Shown: piece by piece, positions 16,905 through 22,420 of the stretch
Position numbering within the stretch: position 1 is the first letter of the stretch
Layout of the letters: every line of letters starts with the position of its first letter
Source: a virus
Virus record (IMG/VR): IMGVR_UViG_3300010148_000103
Span: 1 to 25,415 of that record
DNA: 25,415 nt
Direction: 5' to 3' (one strand)
Notes under the pieces: generated by a model
Told to the model about the DNA's origin: nothing
Database searches by the model: none
Seen by the model: the letters and a program-made list of their open reading frames with translations, nothing else
Position numbers and translations under genes: made by a program

Positions 16905-17723
16905 ATGAAACCAGTAGTAGAAGAACGCCAAGACCTACTGGCTTCATTAAGAGAAAGTTCGTTGGAGCGTGATGATTCGCAAGCAATGCGGACATATAAA
17001 GATACAGAAGGGAATATATATTATTCAGTCACTACGATATTAAGTAATACAGTTCCCGAAGCCAAGCGTAGATCACTAGAAAATTGGAAATCCCGCCCTG
17101 GGAGTGCTGATGAACTAGAACTTGCTCAAAACCGAGGAACAATCAGCCATGAGCATTGTGAGTATGTACTTAAATCTGCTGCCAAAATTAACAAACATGT
17201 TTGTAACGAAAAAGGGAATTGGATACAATATGAAGATGGATTATATAGAGGGCCAGAGGCGACAACGAAATGGGCAATCAAAAAGATCCTTAAAAGAGAA
17301 AAAACTGTCCATTGGACAGCTAGAAAGTATGCGACAAATCTGGCCAGTTGGATAGAGGAAAATGTAGCGGCCATTCATGCCTCAGAATTTTCCATTCATA
17401 ATGATGTTGGATATGCTGGTTGTTCTGACGCATTGATTGACTATAAGAGGAATGGAAATTTATGTATATTAGATTTTAAGACTAGTGGATCATTAAAACC
17501 TAAACCTGACGCATGGTTAGATGATTACAGGCTTCAATTAAGTGCTTATGCATGGGGATTAGAGCGTATGACAGGTATAAAAGTAGGAAGTGCTTTAATA
17601 GTTATTGCAAGAAAAAATGGATTACAGGAGGTTGAAATGAATACCTTGGAATTAGCAGGGGGTCGTTTGTTATTTGAAGAAAGGTTGGAACAATTTAAAG
17701 AAGAATTTTGCCATTCATTTTAA
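16905..17723 (+). CDS. RecB-like PD-(D/E)XK nuclease, 272 aa
   Basis: Late motifs of the RecB/Cas4-like PD-(D/E)XK nuclease fold are clear: 'GYAGCSDALIDY' (residues 169-180, Asp175 metal ligand), 'CILDFKTS' (187-194, Asp190 and Lys192), then 'RLQLSAYAWGLE' (Gln211 and Tyr215). An upstream 'ISHEHCEYVL' (80-89) provides the usual His/Glu helix. It would cut DNA with metal ions, probably as an exonuclease in recombination or host DNA breakdown. Its 3' end overlaps the Mom-like gene by nine bases, convergent and with no terminator between. Confidence 0.85.
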   Translation: MKPVVEERQDLLASLRESSLERDDSQAMRTYKDTEGNIYYSVTTILSNTVPEAKRRSLENWKSRPGSADELELAQNRGTISHEHCEYVLKSAAKINKHVCNEKGNWIQYEDGLYRGPEATTKWAIKKILKREKTVHWTARKYATNLASWIEENVAAIHASEFSIHNDVGYAGCSDALIDYKRNGNLCILDFKTSGSLKPKPDAWLDDYRLQLSAYAWGLERMTGIKVGSALIVIARKNGLQEVEMNTLELAGGRLLFEERLEQFKEEFCHSF

Positions 17724-18473
17724 ATTTCTTTTTGGATAGGGTTTAATTTGATTTTCAATTTGTTTTTTATGATATTTACGTTCTGTTTTTGTACCTAAGA
17801 AATAAAAATATCTTTTTTTACTAGCTTGAGGAACAAATTCAGCATCAGGAAAATATTTTAAGATCTCTTCTTTTTTTTGCGTACCTATTTTTTGTCTAAT
17901 AGATCTAGCACCATATAGTTTGCCTTTGACTTTGACTCCAAACCTGTCATTTTTTCTACTATTAACTTTTGGATTGTTATCACGCATCGAGCCTATATAA
18001 GTAAAGTTACAAGCTTGATAGATAGTACCTATTTCTCCAGCGTGTTCATCAACAGTAGCTGTAACTATTTTGTATTGGCTCGGAAGCAATTTCATAGAGG
18101 AAGTAATTAATTTACTAGCACTATGAGGATGCGCCCAATGAACACAAGCACCTCTGGAAAGAAGGATAATTTTATTTGTATAATCATATTTATCCCAATG
18201 CCCTAAGTTTTCAATATATTCAGTGCTGTAAACGACAGCACCACCTAAATTTCCATCAAAATAAATTCCATAGCAGTATTTGACCATAGCTGGCATACAA
18301 CCAAGCCATTCATATTTTTTAATTAAGTTTGAAGCAGTAATAAAGTTAATAGGTTTGACGACAGCTTTTTTAATATCAGTATCAACGTCTTTCCACCATT
18401 CACCAAAGAGGTTCCAAGCATCCTCTTTTTGCATTTTGTCTCTAATTAATTTTTGGTGAGCTACTTCATTCAT
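17715..18473 (-). CDS. Mom-like DNA modification protein (GNAT-like), 252 aa
   Basis: The central region follows the Mom family of phage adenine modification enzymes (methylcarbamoylation; GNAT-like fold): 'YCYGIYFDGNLGGAVVYS' (66-83), then 'IILLSRGACVHWAHPHSASK' (102-121), then 'VDEHAGEIGTIYQACNFTYI' (141-160). The last two match the family's typical 'LxRxxxxxxAxxNSASxFxxxxL' and 'ADxxxGHxGTxYQAxNFxYxG'. The extended C-terminus ('FGVKVKGKLYGARSIRQKI') fits too. If active it would hide phage DNA from host restriction enzymes. Mu Mom needs a separate activator, Com; the zinc-ribbon gene at 18885 could be a counterpart, but that is only a guess. Coupled by ATGA to the 140-aa gene. Confidence 0.8.
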   Translation of the reverse strand: MNEVAHQKLIRDKMQKEDAWNLFGEWWKDVDTDIKKAVVKPINFITASNLIKKYEWLGCMPAMVKYCYGIYFDGNLGGAVVYSTEYIENLGHWDKYDYTNKIILLSRGACVHWAHPHSASKLITSSMKLLPSQYKIVTATVDEHAGEIGTIYQACNFTYIGSMRDNNPKVNSRKNDRFGVKVKGKLYGARSIRQKIGTQKKEEILKYFPDAEFVPQASKKRYFYFLGTKTERKYHKKQIENQIKPYPKRNLK

Positions 18474-19062: not shown

Positions 19063-19311
19063 TTAATTTTCCCATTCATCTTGCATTGTCTCAGCCTCTT
19101 CAATATTTAAATCAAAAGCTTTTAGGCATTCATCTAATGTCATGTCATTAGTGATGTGGCTGCAAGTTTTAATAGATGGCCAGATCTCCTGTATTTGTTT
19201 TTGGATCGCTGGATATTCGCCGATAATGCAAAAGAGTTTTGATAGTGCCAATACATTGGTGTAATGACTTGATAAAAACGGATAAGATTTTTCTTTAGTA
19301 ATGTCTTCCAT
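19063..19311 (-). CDS. Hypothetical helical protein, 82 aa
   Basis: ATG at 19311 is preferred to an in-frame GTG at 19365, which would begin inside the structured RNA element. The protein starts MEDITKEKSYPF, then 'HYTNVLALSKLFCIIGEYPA', and ends with an acidic helix 'LDECLKAFDLNIEEAETMQD'. No strong ribosome binding site is seen before this start; the leader is T-rich. First gene after the structured leader, so it may be the gene that leader controls. Function unknown. Confidence 0.6.
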   Translation of the reverse strand: MEDITKEKSYPFLSSHYTNVLALSKLFCIIGEYPAIQKQIQEIWPSIKTCSHITNDMTLDECLKAFDLNIEEAETMQDEWEN

Positions 19312-19330
19312 GAGAAAAAAAGAAAAGGGT

Positions 19331-19454
19331 GTAATTAAGGAAGTGGGGCATCTGCAAGGTTTCACCTATATGCCCAAATTTACCCATAGGGAATCGCTTA
19401 CACCTGAATCCCCAAACTTAATCGGGGCTATGGAACCACGTATCACTTAATTAC
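19331..19454 (-). ncRNA. Structured RNA element: riboswitch-like leader or small RNA
   Basis: Read on the minus strand: a 9-pair closing stem GTAATTAAG / CTTAATTAC (plus-strand 19446-19454 with 19331-19339) encloses two arms. Arm A is CCATAG / CTATGG (6 pairs) with CCCC / GGGG (4 pairs) nested in it. Arm B is GGGCAT / ATGCCC (6 pairs) with AGGT / ACCT (4 pairs) in it. The arms are GC-rich in an AT-rich genome. A near-consensus sigma70 promoter lies just upstream and would start RNA at the first base of the closing stem. A T-rich run (TTTTCTTTTTTTCTC) follows the closing stem. It matches no riboswitch class I know. It is not a tRNA: no T-loop or anticodon loop is visible. Confidence 0.6.
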
Positions 19455-19460
19455 TTCTCT

Positions 19461-19490
19461 AATATAGTAATAAAATTAGTCTATTGTCAA
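19461..19490 (-). promoter_or_regulatory. Sigma70-type promoter for the structured RNA
   Basis: Minus strand: TTGACA (perfect -35; plus-strand 19485-19490), an 18-base spacer, then TATATT (plus-strand 19461-19466; five of six -10 matches). The start would fall near 19454, the first base of the closing RNA stem. Confidence 0.75.
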
Positions 19491-19532
19491 CAATAAAAAT
19501 AAACATATACAAAATACTTGGCAAAAACAGCG

Positions 19533-19907
19533 TTAATACTTGGATTCTATTATGAACGTACCAGCTAAGTTACTTAATCGTTCCAAGCTTTTTACAAGCC
19601 TATCTAAGTTTCTGCCATAAATATCCTTTGTTTCTGGATCGTCAGCTACTGAATAATCGTGCAGAGTGTTATCAATAGCAATTGAAAGCCGATTAATTGA
19701 ACTTGAATAATTTATCTGTTCTTCTGTTATTGGTTCGCTTTCAATAGCTTCTGCCTTAATACGATAGTTTCTAGATGCTTCTCGACTAACTTTATATCTA
19801 GCAGACATGATCAACTCAGCGACTTGTTTGCTGCAACCTGTATCGATTAAATATTTAATCTCTTTAATCCTTCTATTATGCTCAGTGTTAGTGGATCGCC
19901 CAGACAT
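19533..19907 (-). CDS. Hypothetical, possible helix-turn-helix protein, 124 aa
   Basis: Residues 8-52 ('EHNRRIKEIKYLIDTGCSKQ', 'VAELIMSARYKVSREASRNY') resemble a helix-turn-helix opening like those of some phage regulators or small terminases. The second half is a helical region ('INRLSIAIDNTLHDYS', 'GRNLDRLVKSLERLSNLAG') that may oligomerise. First gene of its transcription unit, 62 bases from a divergent gene. A regulator is the best guess; the terminase small subunit is more likely the gene at 23338. Confidence 0.6.
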   Translation of the reverse strand: MSGRSTNTEHNRRIKEIKYLIDTGCSKQVAELIMSARYKVSREASRNYRIKAEAIESEPITEEQINYSSSINRLSIAIDNTLHDYSVADDPETKDIYGRNLDRLVKSLERLSNLAGTFIIESKY

Positions 19908-20471: not shown

Positions 20472-20682
20472 AGTGTCTACTCACTAATATTTTTAAATTA
20501 TCTCTATGATGTAATGTTATTAATTCAAGTACATCATCTAAATTAAATACATAGTCATTGTATACATCATTATTCCAATCTTTAGTTAACTTGCCTTTAT
20601 AAGCTTGAATATAATAATAATATTCAGTTGGTCTATTTTCAAAAGCATCCTCTAATGCTGCTGTACTGTAAGGGTTACTCAC
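20461..20682 (-). CDS. Small acidic hypothetical protein, 73 aa
   Basis: Rich in Tyr, Asp and Asn ('NRPTEYYYYIQAYKGK', 'DWNNDVYNDYVFNLDDVLEL'). It overlaps the Gp88-like gene by four bases (ATGA). Acidic, aromatic proteins of this size in an anti-defence-like cluster may be DNA mimics, but nothing here proves that. Confidence 0.6.
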   Translation of the reverse strand: MSNPYSTAALEDAFENRPTEYYYYIQAYKGKLTKDWNNDVYNDYVFNLDDVLELITLHHRDNLKILVSRHYEI

Positions 20683-21449
20683 TTTAAAACCTCCTGTAGT
20701 TGTTTTGTTTTTTTAGAATATCCAACAAATAAACCTGCTTTTTTTCTTTGCTGGATCGCTGCTCTTGCTTTTGGTGTTTGTATTCCACCGTGTACTAAAT
20801 GGCAGAACGTACCTTTAAAGTCTGAATAAGCATGATAATCGTTATGGTCAATCGGTTGACCTTTTGACTCGTCAGGTAAATATATAACCCTACATTTTTT
20901 TTCAAATAAATTTGAATATTCTTGGTCGTGTATTCCACCAAGTGAACACGTTACCCTTAAACCTTTACTAACCTTAAACCCGTCAAATAATGGGAGCGAC
21001 TTGGTGTATAAATATGAGATTAATTTATATTCTTTATAGAGATATTCTGCTGCGTTATTTATTCCTATTAAGTGGTTTTTATTGATTATATCCCCGCTTT
21101 CGTGATACCTGACGTATTCTGACTTTCTGGAGCGTAAACCTTTTATACTATCTATAATTAATTGTTCTAATTTATTTTCTTTAATTGCTTTCATTATCAA
21201 TCGATAATTTGCCCACCTACTAGCAGCTACTGCGGGATAGCGGAGCTCACTCAATGAGGCATAACATAAAAACTCAGTATCTTTAAAAGTTTTTAATTGT
21301 CTCTTGCCGTCCTTTTGAATACAACAAGTTTTACAATTTTTTGCACCTATCCCGCATGTATGACCTGCGGGAGTATTTGAAAAAATAATGATATTTAAGG
21401 GAAGTTTATTACTTCCCCTTTTACCTGATATTAAAGATTTATTTTTCAT
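20679..21449 (-). CDS. Gp88-family-like protein, 256 aa
   Basis: Fits the phage 'gene product 88' family: an early cysteine cluster (C32, C39, C42, C43 in 'TCGIGAKNCKTCC'), 'LRYPAVAASRWANYR' (69-83), 'VRYHESGDI' (113-121, the family's R-x-H-x-SGD), 'YLYTKSLP' (146-153), and later cysteines before 'CHLVHGG'. The cysteines suggest a metal site. The molecular role of the family is unknown to me. Coupled to both neighbours, the ArdC-like gene and the 73-aa gene, by ATGA overlaps. Confidence 0.7.
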   Translation of the reverse strand: MKNKSLISGKRGSNKLPLNIIIFSNTPAGHTCGIGAKNCKTCCIQKDGKRQLKTFKDTEFLCYASLSELRYPAVAASRWANYRLIMKAIKENKLEQLIIDSIKGLRSRKSEYVRYHESGDIINKNHLIGINNAAEYLYKEYKLISYLYTKSLPLFDGFKVSKGLRVTCSLGGIHDQEYSNLFEKKCRVIYLPDESKGQPIDHNDYHAYSDFKGTFCHLVHGGIQTPKARAAIQQRKKAGLFVGYSKKTKQLQEVLK

Positions 21450-22420
21450 TTTTTGATATCTCCTTTTAAATATTTAATTGCTTTATTTGATTGTGTTAAT
21501 AACTTAAATAATATTTTTTTGTCTGCTTTAAGTGTCTTAATCCAACTTTCTAAATATGCTGCTGAGTTTTGAATTTTATCTATAGTGCTTATTTTTAGCT
21601 CATGAGTAAGATTTACTGCGGCTAATTCTGTGATTAACTCCTCAGTAGCGTATGACTTTCTATTAGTATTTGGATCGGTTAAAGTTTTACGGTTTAACCT
21701 CATTGGATTAGCTGAGCCAGTCGAGTGGATTAGCTCATGTAGGTAAGTCCCGTAAAATCCACATTGACTTGTGAATTGTTCCTTTTCTGGCATCGTGACA
21801 GTATCAGCATTAGGAGTATAAAAAGCAGAATTACCACCAAAAAAAACATCAATCGATTCTCTTTTTATATAAGAATTAATGAGTTTTTCTGTCGGCTTGT
21901 GATCCTTAAAGCTTTGAGCTTGTGCCTCTGGTGGAGATACAAACTTATCTAGAATTTTTTGTTTTTGTTCTGAATCCTCGAATTGATCGATATTGAAAAC
22001 ACAAGCGGTTTTATATGTCATCCAATTTGTTTTTACTGGATCGCCTAAAGCATCTAAAATTGGCTTTTTTGTCTCAGGGTCTAATTTATCCTCACTATGC
22101 AAAATCGGCATTAAGATTCTTGCCGATTTACTACCCTTTTTTAACTTAAGTTTTAAAGCTTTACCCTGACCAAATCCGCAATAAATACTATGTGGATAAC
22201 CACCTAATATTTGATGCATCATAAGTAAAACAACATTGGACCCGTTATATTCTGCCGATGTTTGGGCATTGATTAATTTACCTTTCGTTGTAGTGTTCCA
22301 ATCTTTTTTAAAGGTGTTACCCTTTTCAAAAAATTCTATTAACTGATTAGTGAGAATTTCTTCTGCACTAATCTTGATAGATGTTTCCTTTGTTTTTGGT
22401 GCGCTTGTTGTTGTTGGCAT
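21446..22420 (-). CDS. ArdC-like antirestriction protein with zincin domain, 324 aa
   Basis: An ArdC-type N-terminal domain (about 1-145: 'NQLIEFFEKGNTFKKDWNTT', 'YNGSNVVLLM', 'YCGFGQGKALKLKLKKGSKS') is followed by a zincin-like metallopeptidase domain. 'YLHELIHSTG' (226-235) holds the HExxH zinc motif with Glu229 catalytic and His228/His232 ligands; Glu260 or Glu261 in 'YATEELITELAA' (257-268) is the likely third ligand. ArdC proteins bind ssDNA and protect incoming DNA from restriction. The length is close to known ArdC proteins. Starts 14 bases after the 52-aa gene and overlaps the Gp88-like gene by ATGA. Confidence 0.85.
   Translation of the reverse strand: MPTTTSAPKTKETSIKISAEEILTNQLIEFFEKGNTFKKDWNTTTKGKLINAQTSAEYNGSNVVLLMMHQILGGYPHSIYCGFGQGKALKLKLKKGSKSARILMPILHSEDKLDPETKKPILDALGDPVKTNWMTYKTACVFNIDQFEDSEQKQKILDKFVSPPEAQAQSFKDHKPTEKLINSYIKRESIDVFFGGNSAFYTPNADTVTMPEKEQFTSQCGFYGTYLHELIHSTGSANPMRLNRKTLTDPNTNRKSYATEELITELAAVNLTHELKISTIDKIQNSAAYLESWIKTLKADKKILFKLLTQSNKAIKYLKGDIKK

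Follow-up and report, generated by a model that had tools for sequence, protein, structure and literature searches.

A structured RNA is encoded on the minus strand at positions 19331 to 19454 of the IMG/VR virus record IMGVR_UViG_3300010148_000103, whose 25,415 nucleotides (nt) were analysed as one stretch, referred to here as the window. Comparison with relatives in other phages establishes an RNA family, together with its structure, its coding strand, the position of its promoter and the exchange of cassettes in one of its arms. The best explanation, to which we give evenly balanced weight, is that the element belongs to a new family of structured 5'-leader RNAs of marine cyanophages, acting in cis on unrelated genes. 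The original prediction, made from the window alone, was right in its observations and understated them; the cassette nature of the arm P4 and the unrelated downstream genes are not visible from a single window.

Architecture of the element

The promoter that had been proposed on the minus strand, TTGACA-18-TATATT (19461 to 19490), agrees with the consensus at 11 of 12 positions. Its predicted start falls at 19454-19455, and the -10 box ends 7 nt ahead of the closing stem P1, whose first base, at about 19454, is the predicted start of the transcript. P1 is, as originally described, a perfect helix of 9 base pairs (bp), in which GTAATTAAG (19446 to 19454) pairs with CTTAATTAC (19331 to 19339). 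Inside it, P2 is formed by GTG (19437 to 19439) and CAC (19343 to 19345), with ACG/CGT taking their place in relatives, and encloses the two nested arms of 6 plus 4 pairs that had also been described. In the first arm, the 6-bp stem P3, CCATAG (19428 to 19433) with CTATGG (19384 to 19389), leads into P4, CCCCGATTAAGTTTGGGG (19410 to 19427), where CCCC/GGGG gives four pairs and two weak ones follow; this is the short cap form of an exchangeable cassette site, and most short members share it. The second arm (19346 to 19375) consists of P5, the 6-bp stem GGGCAT/ATGCCC, around AGGT-GAA-ACCT, whose AGGT/ACCT forms the 4-bp P6. The most conserved strand, TTCAGGTGTAAGCGATTCC (19390 to 19408), lies between P4 and P3, is unpaired in the consensus and is almost invariant, also at loci retrieved through the other half of the RNA alone. 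A second conserved strand, GTAAATTT (19376 to 19383), links the two arms.

Covariation and folding

The counts of 82, 91, 96 and 128 relatives used here and below are among the matches listed. An independent RNAalifold analysis of 34 members with a short P4 recovered the same stems as the original prediction, with 15 compensated pairs; 98% of the counted pairs in this alignment are formed, and 124 cells carry double changes, as against 38.6 in shuffles. These 34 members were preselected by a P3-complement filter that 122 of the 128 matches passed, the failures being mostly contig ends and, in one case, a second copy of the element on the contig L055. A model of the RNA, R1, recovered 22 of 22 loci of a second scan that was blind to P3. 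When 50 distinct relatives were aligned, compensatory changes, the check that had been suggested for the prediction, were found in all six stems, with 22 of 32 pairs compensated and 95% of cells paired. This alignment was fitted to R1, and so is biased towards it, and holds 228 double-change cells compared with 65.7 in shuffles, a level reached in none of 500 shuffles; the signal collapses if partners slide by one base.

P1 occurs as 46 distinct helices in 96 relatives (for example AAGCAACGAT/ATCGTTGCTT and AGTTTCAAGGGA/TCCCTTGAAACT), all eight of its modelled pairs covary, and its own-partner score of 21.9 lies above the permuted mean of 17.0 and maximum of 17.9. P2 and P3 likewise covary, P3 appearing in relatives as CTACTG/CAGTAG, CCTATG/CATAGG, CTCTAG/CTAGAG, GCTATG/CATAGC and CCCGTA/TACGGG. 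P5 alternates between GGGCA/TGCCC and GGTCT/AGACC or GGACT/AGTCC, and the cells of P5 and P6 are 100% paired. G-U and U-G cells together number 60 against 3 for A-C and C-A, or 31 against 3 once the 29 contributed by one pair at the P4 cap are set aside, an excess which argues that the element functions as RNA of the minus strand, and not as DNA or as the opposite strand. The conserved unpaired bases are grouped at the junction in the manner of an aptamer. A second hairpin that RNAalifold proposed within the conserved strand was rejected, as it is invariant and lacks support.

The folding check suggested with the prediction gave a divided answer. The window RNA has a fold z-score of -2.42, with 3 of 200 shuffles equally stable, and pair probabilities in the single-sequence fold are 0.998 for P1 and 0.88 for P4, but only 0.05-0.07 for P3 and P5, which find alternative pairing in the preferred thermodynamic fold (-38.1 kcal/mol, against -31.6 kcal/mol for the comparative fold). 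As energy alone favours P1 and P4 and lends nothing to P3 and P5, comparative evidence is essential, and the latter two stems rest on covariation, which is very strong there. Within 19357-19389 of the window, the P3 3' strand can form pairs with the beginning of the P5/P6 arm (CCTATG with CATATAGG), and the thermodynamic fold of the window therefore departs from the conserved one; this pairing is absent as a conserved feature in relatives and is probably incidental.

Transcript start and downstream genes

Conservation of the promoter was assessed in the last 22 nt before P1 of 82 relatives that have no RNA module immediately upstream. In 55 of them there is a TATAAT-like box with no more than one mismatch, compared with a mean of 30.8 and a maximum of 43 in shuffled sequences. 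The box lies within -12 to -7 of P1, its favoured position being -12/-11 from the first P1 base, and across relatives roughly 7 nt separate it from the first stem. The -35 box is not conserved among these relatives, and the TTGACA of the window is a local feature. In some relatives an apparent terminator of the preceding gene lies right before the promoter.

On the other side of the element, start codons are found 17-31 nt past P1 in 26 of 91 relatives, as against 8.7% from random points, and none occurs 0-16 nt past it. The linkers between P1 and the gene are 61% pyrimidine and 10% G, and a Shine-Dalgarno motif is present in 5 of 30. In the window, the pyrimidine-rich linker ACCCTTTTCTTTTTTTCTC (19312 to 19330, minus strand), which has no Shine-Dalgarno motif, is probably a translation-start region rather than a terminator; it leads to a gene of 82 amino acids (aa; 19063 to 19311, minus strand) whose start codon lies 20 nt past P1 and whose product has no Pfam match. 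Downstream genes in the relatives belong to many unrelated families, including small uncharacterised proteins and what we take, from reading the sequence, to be a UvsW-like helicase. The spike of start codons, the pyrimidine-rich and Shine-Dalgarno-poor linkers and the variety of genes together suggest a leader that is not bound to one pathway. Promoter spacing and the start-codon spike are both consistent with a transcript that would have its 5' end at the element or upstream of it and be joined to the next gene.

Distribution among phages

When the region was compared by blastn with 50,697 phages, the matches spanned the RNA and nothing more (query 110-228, 86% identity), in intergenic DNA of the Prochlorococcus phages P-SSM2 and P-SSM5 and of four single-cell marine viruses. 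P-SSM2 (AY939844) carries one copy, at 56688-56830, upstream of PSSM2_071, and the 119-bp match is all that 5.5 kilobases (kb) of the window share with these phages, which indicates that the RNA is kept apart from its genes. The exact 20-base core occurs in at least 119 IMG/VR stretches, and for a pattern built on the other half the matches listed are likewise a lower bound; used by itself, the pattern AGCCCCGA..GGGG lacked specificity, retrieving mostly unrelated loci, and was discarded. Among 84,980 genomes of prokaryote species none contains the exact core, and R1 has no match in 253 cyanobacterial genomes; R1 is positive in 20 of 20 phage records, usually with one copy each. On these sequence comparisons, the element is a phage RNA and not host-derived. 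The contig L055 bears two copies about 900 bp apart; for the second, no 5' half was recognised over the distance searched.

The phage of the window does not belong with the T4-like phages. Its terminase shares 41-44% identity with those of Vibrio phages and of cyanophage S-2L. Its genes include those for Mom, ArdC, GP88 and a PriCT-2/AAA primase-helicase, the ATPase part of which is 30% identical to its counterpart in Synechococcus phage S-CBS4. Together with the solitary match to P-SSM2 and P-SSM5, this indicates that the RNA moves between unrelated phages. The Mom-family DNA modification protein is encoded downstream of the RNA (17715-18473, minus strand), and the ArdC-type antirestriction protein and GP88 upstream of it (20679-22420, minus strand); all three are likely to be counter-defence genes.

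The P4 cassette site and its modules

The P4 of the window is the commonest short cap. In most relatives among the matches listed, P4 is longer by inserts of 30-215 nt that are assembled from recurring modules, labelled M1-M13 here. The modules also occur free-standing within about 1 kb of the element and are nearly always on its strand, with two minus-strand matches in total. They can be nested, as with M6 in M8 (L102), M1 in M5 (L012), M5 in M8 (L071) and M4 in M3 (L055). Between L102 and L116, whose flanks are 98-99% identical, the RNA differs by one base and by a 40-nt hairpin, GACTC...GAGTC, which is M6, present or absent within another RNA module; L082 and L134, with flanks of the same identity, differ by a 60-nt insert. 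The M6 core is kept in six contexts with six different self-complementary clamps, the arms of which pair better than all 500 permutations. Clamp tests of M1 and M4 gave no pairing signal, and that of M2 gave none at the offsets used, its pairing being visible by eye one base further out.

M1 (AAGGATCTATGGTTGTCTC...GAGAAATTACGTCCT) is free-standing and intergenic in P-SSM2 at 55,980-56,033 (L008:3282-3335), has no Rfam counterpart, and recurs, its core unchanged, as a P4 insert in L010, L048, L049, L081 and others. M5 (TGTGGTATGACTTAGTACC ... GGTGAAGCACCTCTTGAGCATACCACA) is found downstream of the element at L008:4127-4207 and about 20 other loci, where it forms a shell enclosing other modules (M1, M6-like, M13); in P-SSM2 it lies directly past the element. 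M12 (TTTCAGGGTT.G.GGCGATAGGAAACTACC) has 27 matches within 1 kb downstream (for example in L052, L077 and L097), frequently adjoins the 3' side of the closing stem and resembles another structured RNA.

Their movement would be explained most simply by recombination between modules held in common. More tentatively, the modules may constitute a combinatorial RNA-cassette system, in which a small alphabet of cores with clamp stems, always in the sense orientation, plugs into P4 and into each other's loops, is exchanged between phages and alters the action of the leader; we regard this as possible, though somewhat less probable than its opposite.

Comparison with known RNAs

In agreement with the unknown class suggested originally, Rfam 15 holds no family matching the window element or eight relatives (gathering thresholds; E<=10 in 19200-19560; E<=0.5 for the relatives), and permissive scans gave just weak chance matches to eukaryotic small nucleolar RNA and microRNA models. 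No transfer RNA or transfer-messenger RNA was found. A 49-aa open reading frame on the plus strand is not credible as coding sequence, since the lengths of P4 and P5/P6 vary by non-multiples of three. The CfrI antisense RNA of psbA was also rejected, as the element is intergenic and its P-SSM2 copy lies at 56688-56830, with psbA at about 211.5-212.6 kb. The open-access papers on cyanophage RNAs that were consulted describe CfrI, PhotoRC-II, wcaG, manA, glnA and abiF, and none of them gives an account of this RNA.

The manA and wcaG motifs (RF01745, RF01761) are conserved structured RNAs known from T4-like cyanophages as well as from marine metagenomes, for the most part within 5' untranslated regions (Weinberg et al. 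2010, PMC2864571). The element is like them in setting, as a structured RNA of cyanophages and marine metagenomes that probably lies in leaders, but it matches neither model and its conserved sequence differs. Glutamine riboswitches (glnA, RF01739; Downstream-peptide, RF01704) are multi-stem-junction leaders of cyanobacteria and cyanophages; the element has no match to their models, and its downstream genes are not nitrogen-linked. IMES-1 (RF02034) and other marine environmental RNAs share with it their abundance in mainly ocean samples, and the IMES-1 model found nothing in three element-bearing records in a search run without a positive control, nor did cmscan. The large ornate RNAs GOLLD and ROOL (PMC12286853) are, like it, complex, without an assigned function, and found in bacteria or in association with phages. 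They are far larger, and the element has no Rfam match to either. We know of no nested cassette arm in manA or wcaG, nor of module exchange of this kind in GOLLD or ROOL. The leaders of ompA and T4 gene 32 are 5'-terminal stabilising stems of bacterial and phage messenger RNAs (mRNAs) and, as predicted here, their structure is flush with the transcript start and followed by ordinary start regions; the element differs from them as a family with a conserved core, transfer between unrelated phages and exchangeable inserts.

Proposed function and alternatives

In the proposed leader, transcription is predicted to begin at the first base of P1. By the comparative computation, the minus-strand RNA adopts a three-way junction that carries two arms and about 27 conserved bases left unpaired; P4 is its exchangeable site, closed in the window by the short cap and occupied in most relatives by recurring nested hairpin modules. 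It would probably act in cis by giving the mRNA of the next gene (here the 82-aa gene) a structured 5' end, as suggested by the excess of starts 17-31 nt past P1 and by the lack of a conserved terminator between them. We infer a role in stabilising the mRNA or in controlling its translation. Closed and flush with the start, the 5' end may act as a cap against 5'-end-dependent decay by host RNase E, and the pyrimidine-rich linker would stay free for ribosome loading. A Prochlorococcus phage raises host RNase E during infection, and antisense RNA covers and protects its own transcripts (PMC9692554); a closed 5' end could be another route of evading this enzyme. Conservation of the joining strands points to a partner that binds the RNA, and the core would probably bind a protein or small molecule that tunes protection or loading, with the P4 cassettes altering the surface of the RNA and leaving the core undisturbed.

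Several observations weigh against such a leader. A plain stabilising stem would have no need of the strictly conserved UUCAGGUGUAAGCGAUUCC and UAAAUUU strands, and the usual single copy per phage record is odd for a general mRNA cap. In 14 of 96 relatives, including P-SSM2, the element is preceded by another RNA module and not by a promoter, so that P1 is not the 5' end there, and a gene lies within 60 nt in just about one third of relatives, the rest having further RNA modules or longer gaps. Moreover, many relatives are close kin, and the counts given above are of non-independent events.

A free trans-acting small RNA, for instance a decoy that draws off an RNA-binding protein or RNase of the host, with its 3' end made by T-run termination or P1 processing, would suit the element's own promoter, a P1 that joins both ends, the usual single copy and the unrelated downstream genes. 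The T-rich run originally noted after the element is indeed present past P1, in the window and in 29 of 96 relatives, but it is not conserved, and no Rho-independent terminator was called in the window; the run was rejected as a conserved terminator or small-RNA end. The start-codon spike also argues against a free RNA, which we consider unlikely. The original prediction had allowed either a leader or a 124-nt small RNA; the lack of a conserved T-run and the spike favour the leader, and a terminated small RNA is disfavoured. Less probable still is a riboswitch, in which the junction and its invariant joining strands would form the aptamer for a single infection-responsive metabolite and P4 would be a tolerated peripheral arm. 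The grouping of conserved unpaired strands at the junction and the variable peripheral arm fit this, as do the glnA, manA and wcaG metabolite or candidate switches borne by the same phage group (PMC9964418, PMC2864571). The downstream genes, however, have no common pathway, and there is no recognisable terminator or sequestered start signal; the leader part of the riboswitch-like leader first suggested is retained, and the exchangeable P4 and unrelated genes count against an ordinary gene-specific riboswitch. An element acting as DNA, such as a cruciform, recombination hotspot or mobile palindrome whose inverted repeats would serve DNA transactions and whose insertions would stem from recombination, would account for exact hairpin gain and loss in near-identical phages, for modules shared in gene-poor variable stretches and for transfer between unrelated phages. 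It is very improbable in view of the ratio of G-U to A-C cells, the modules lying almost always on the element's strand, and the conservation of promoter spacing and unpaired strands.

Implications

If the preferred cis-acting leader is correct, a widespread leader RNA of ocean viruses has been missing from the RNA catalogue while being present in a well-studied phage. Its presence in P-SSM2 would open RNA regulation by phages, in the photosynthetic cells that are the most abundant, to direct tests. In addition, nested sense modules swapped among near-identical phages would, if true, represent natural modular RNA evolution in action.
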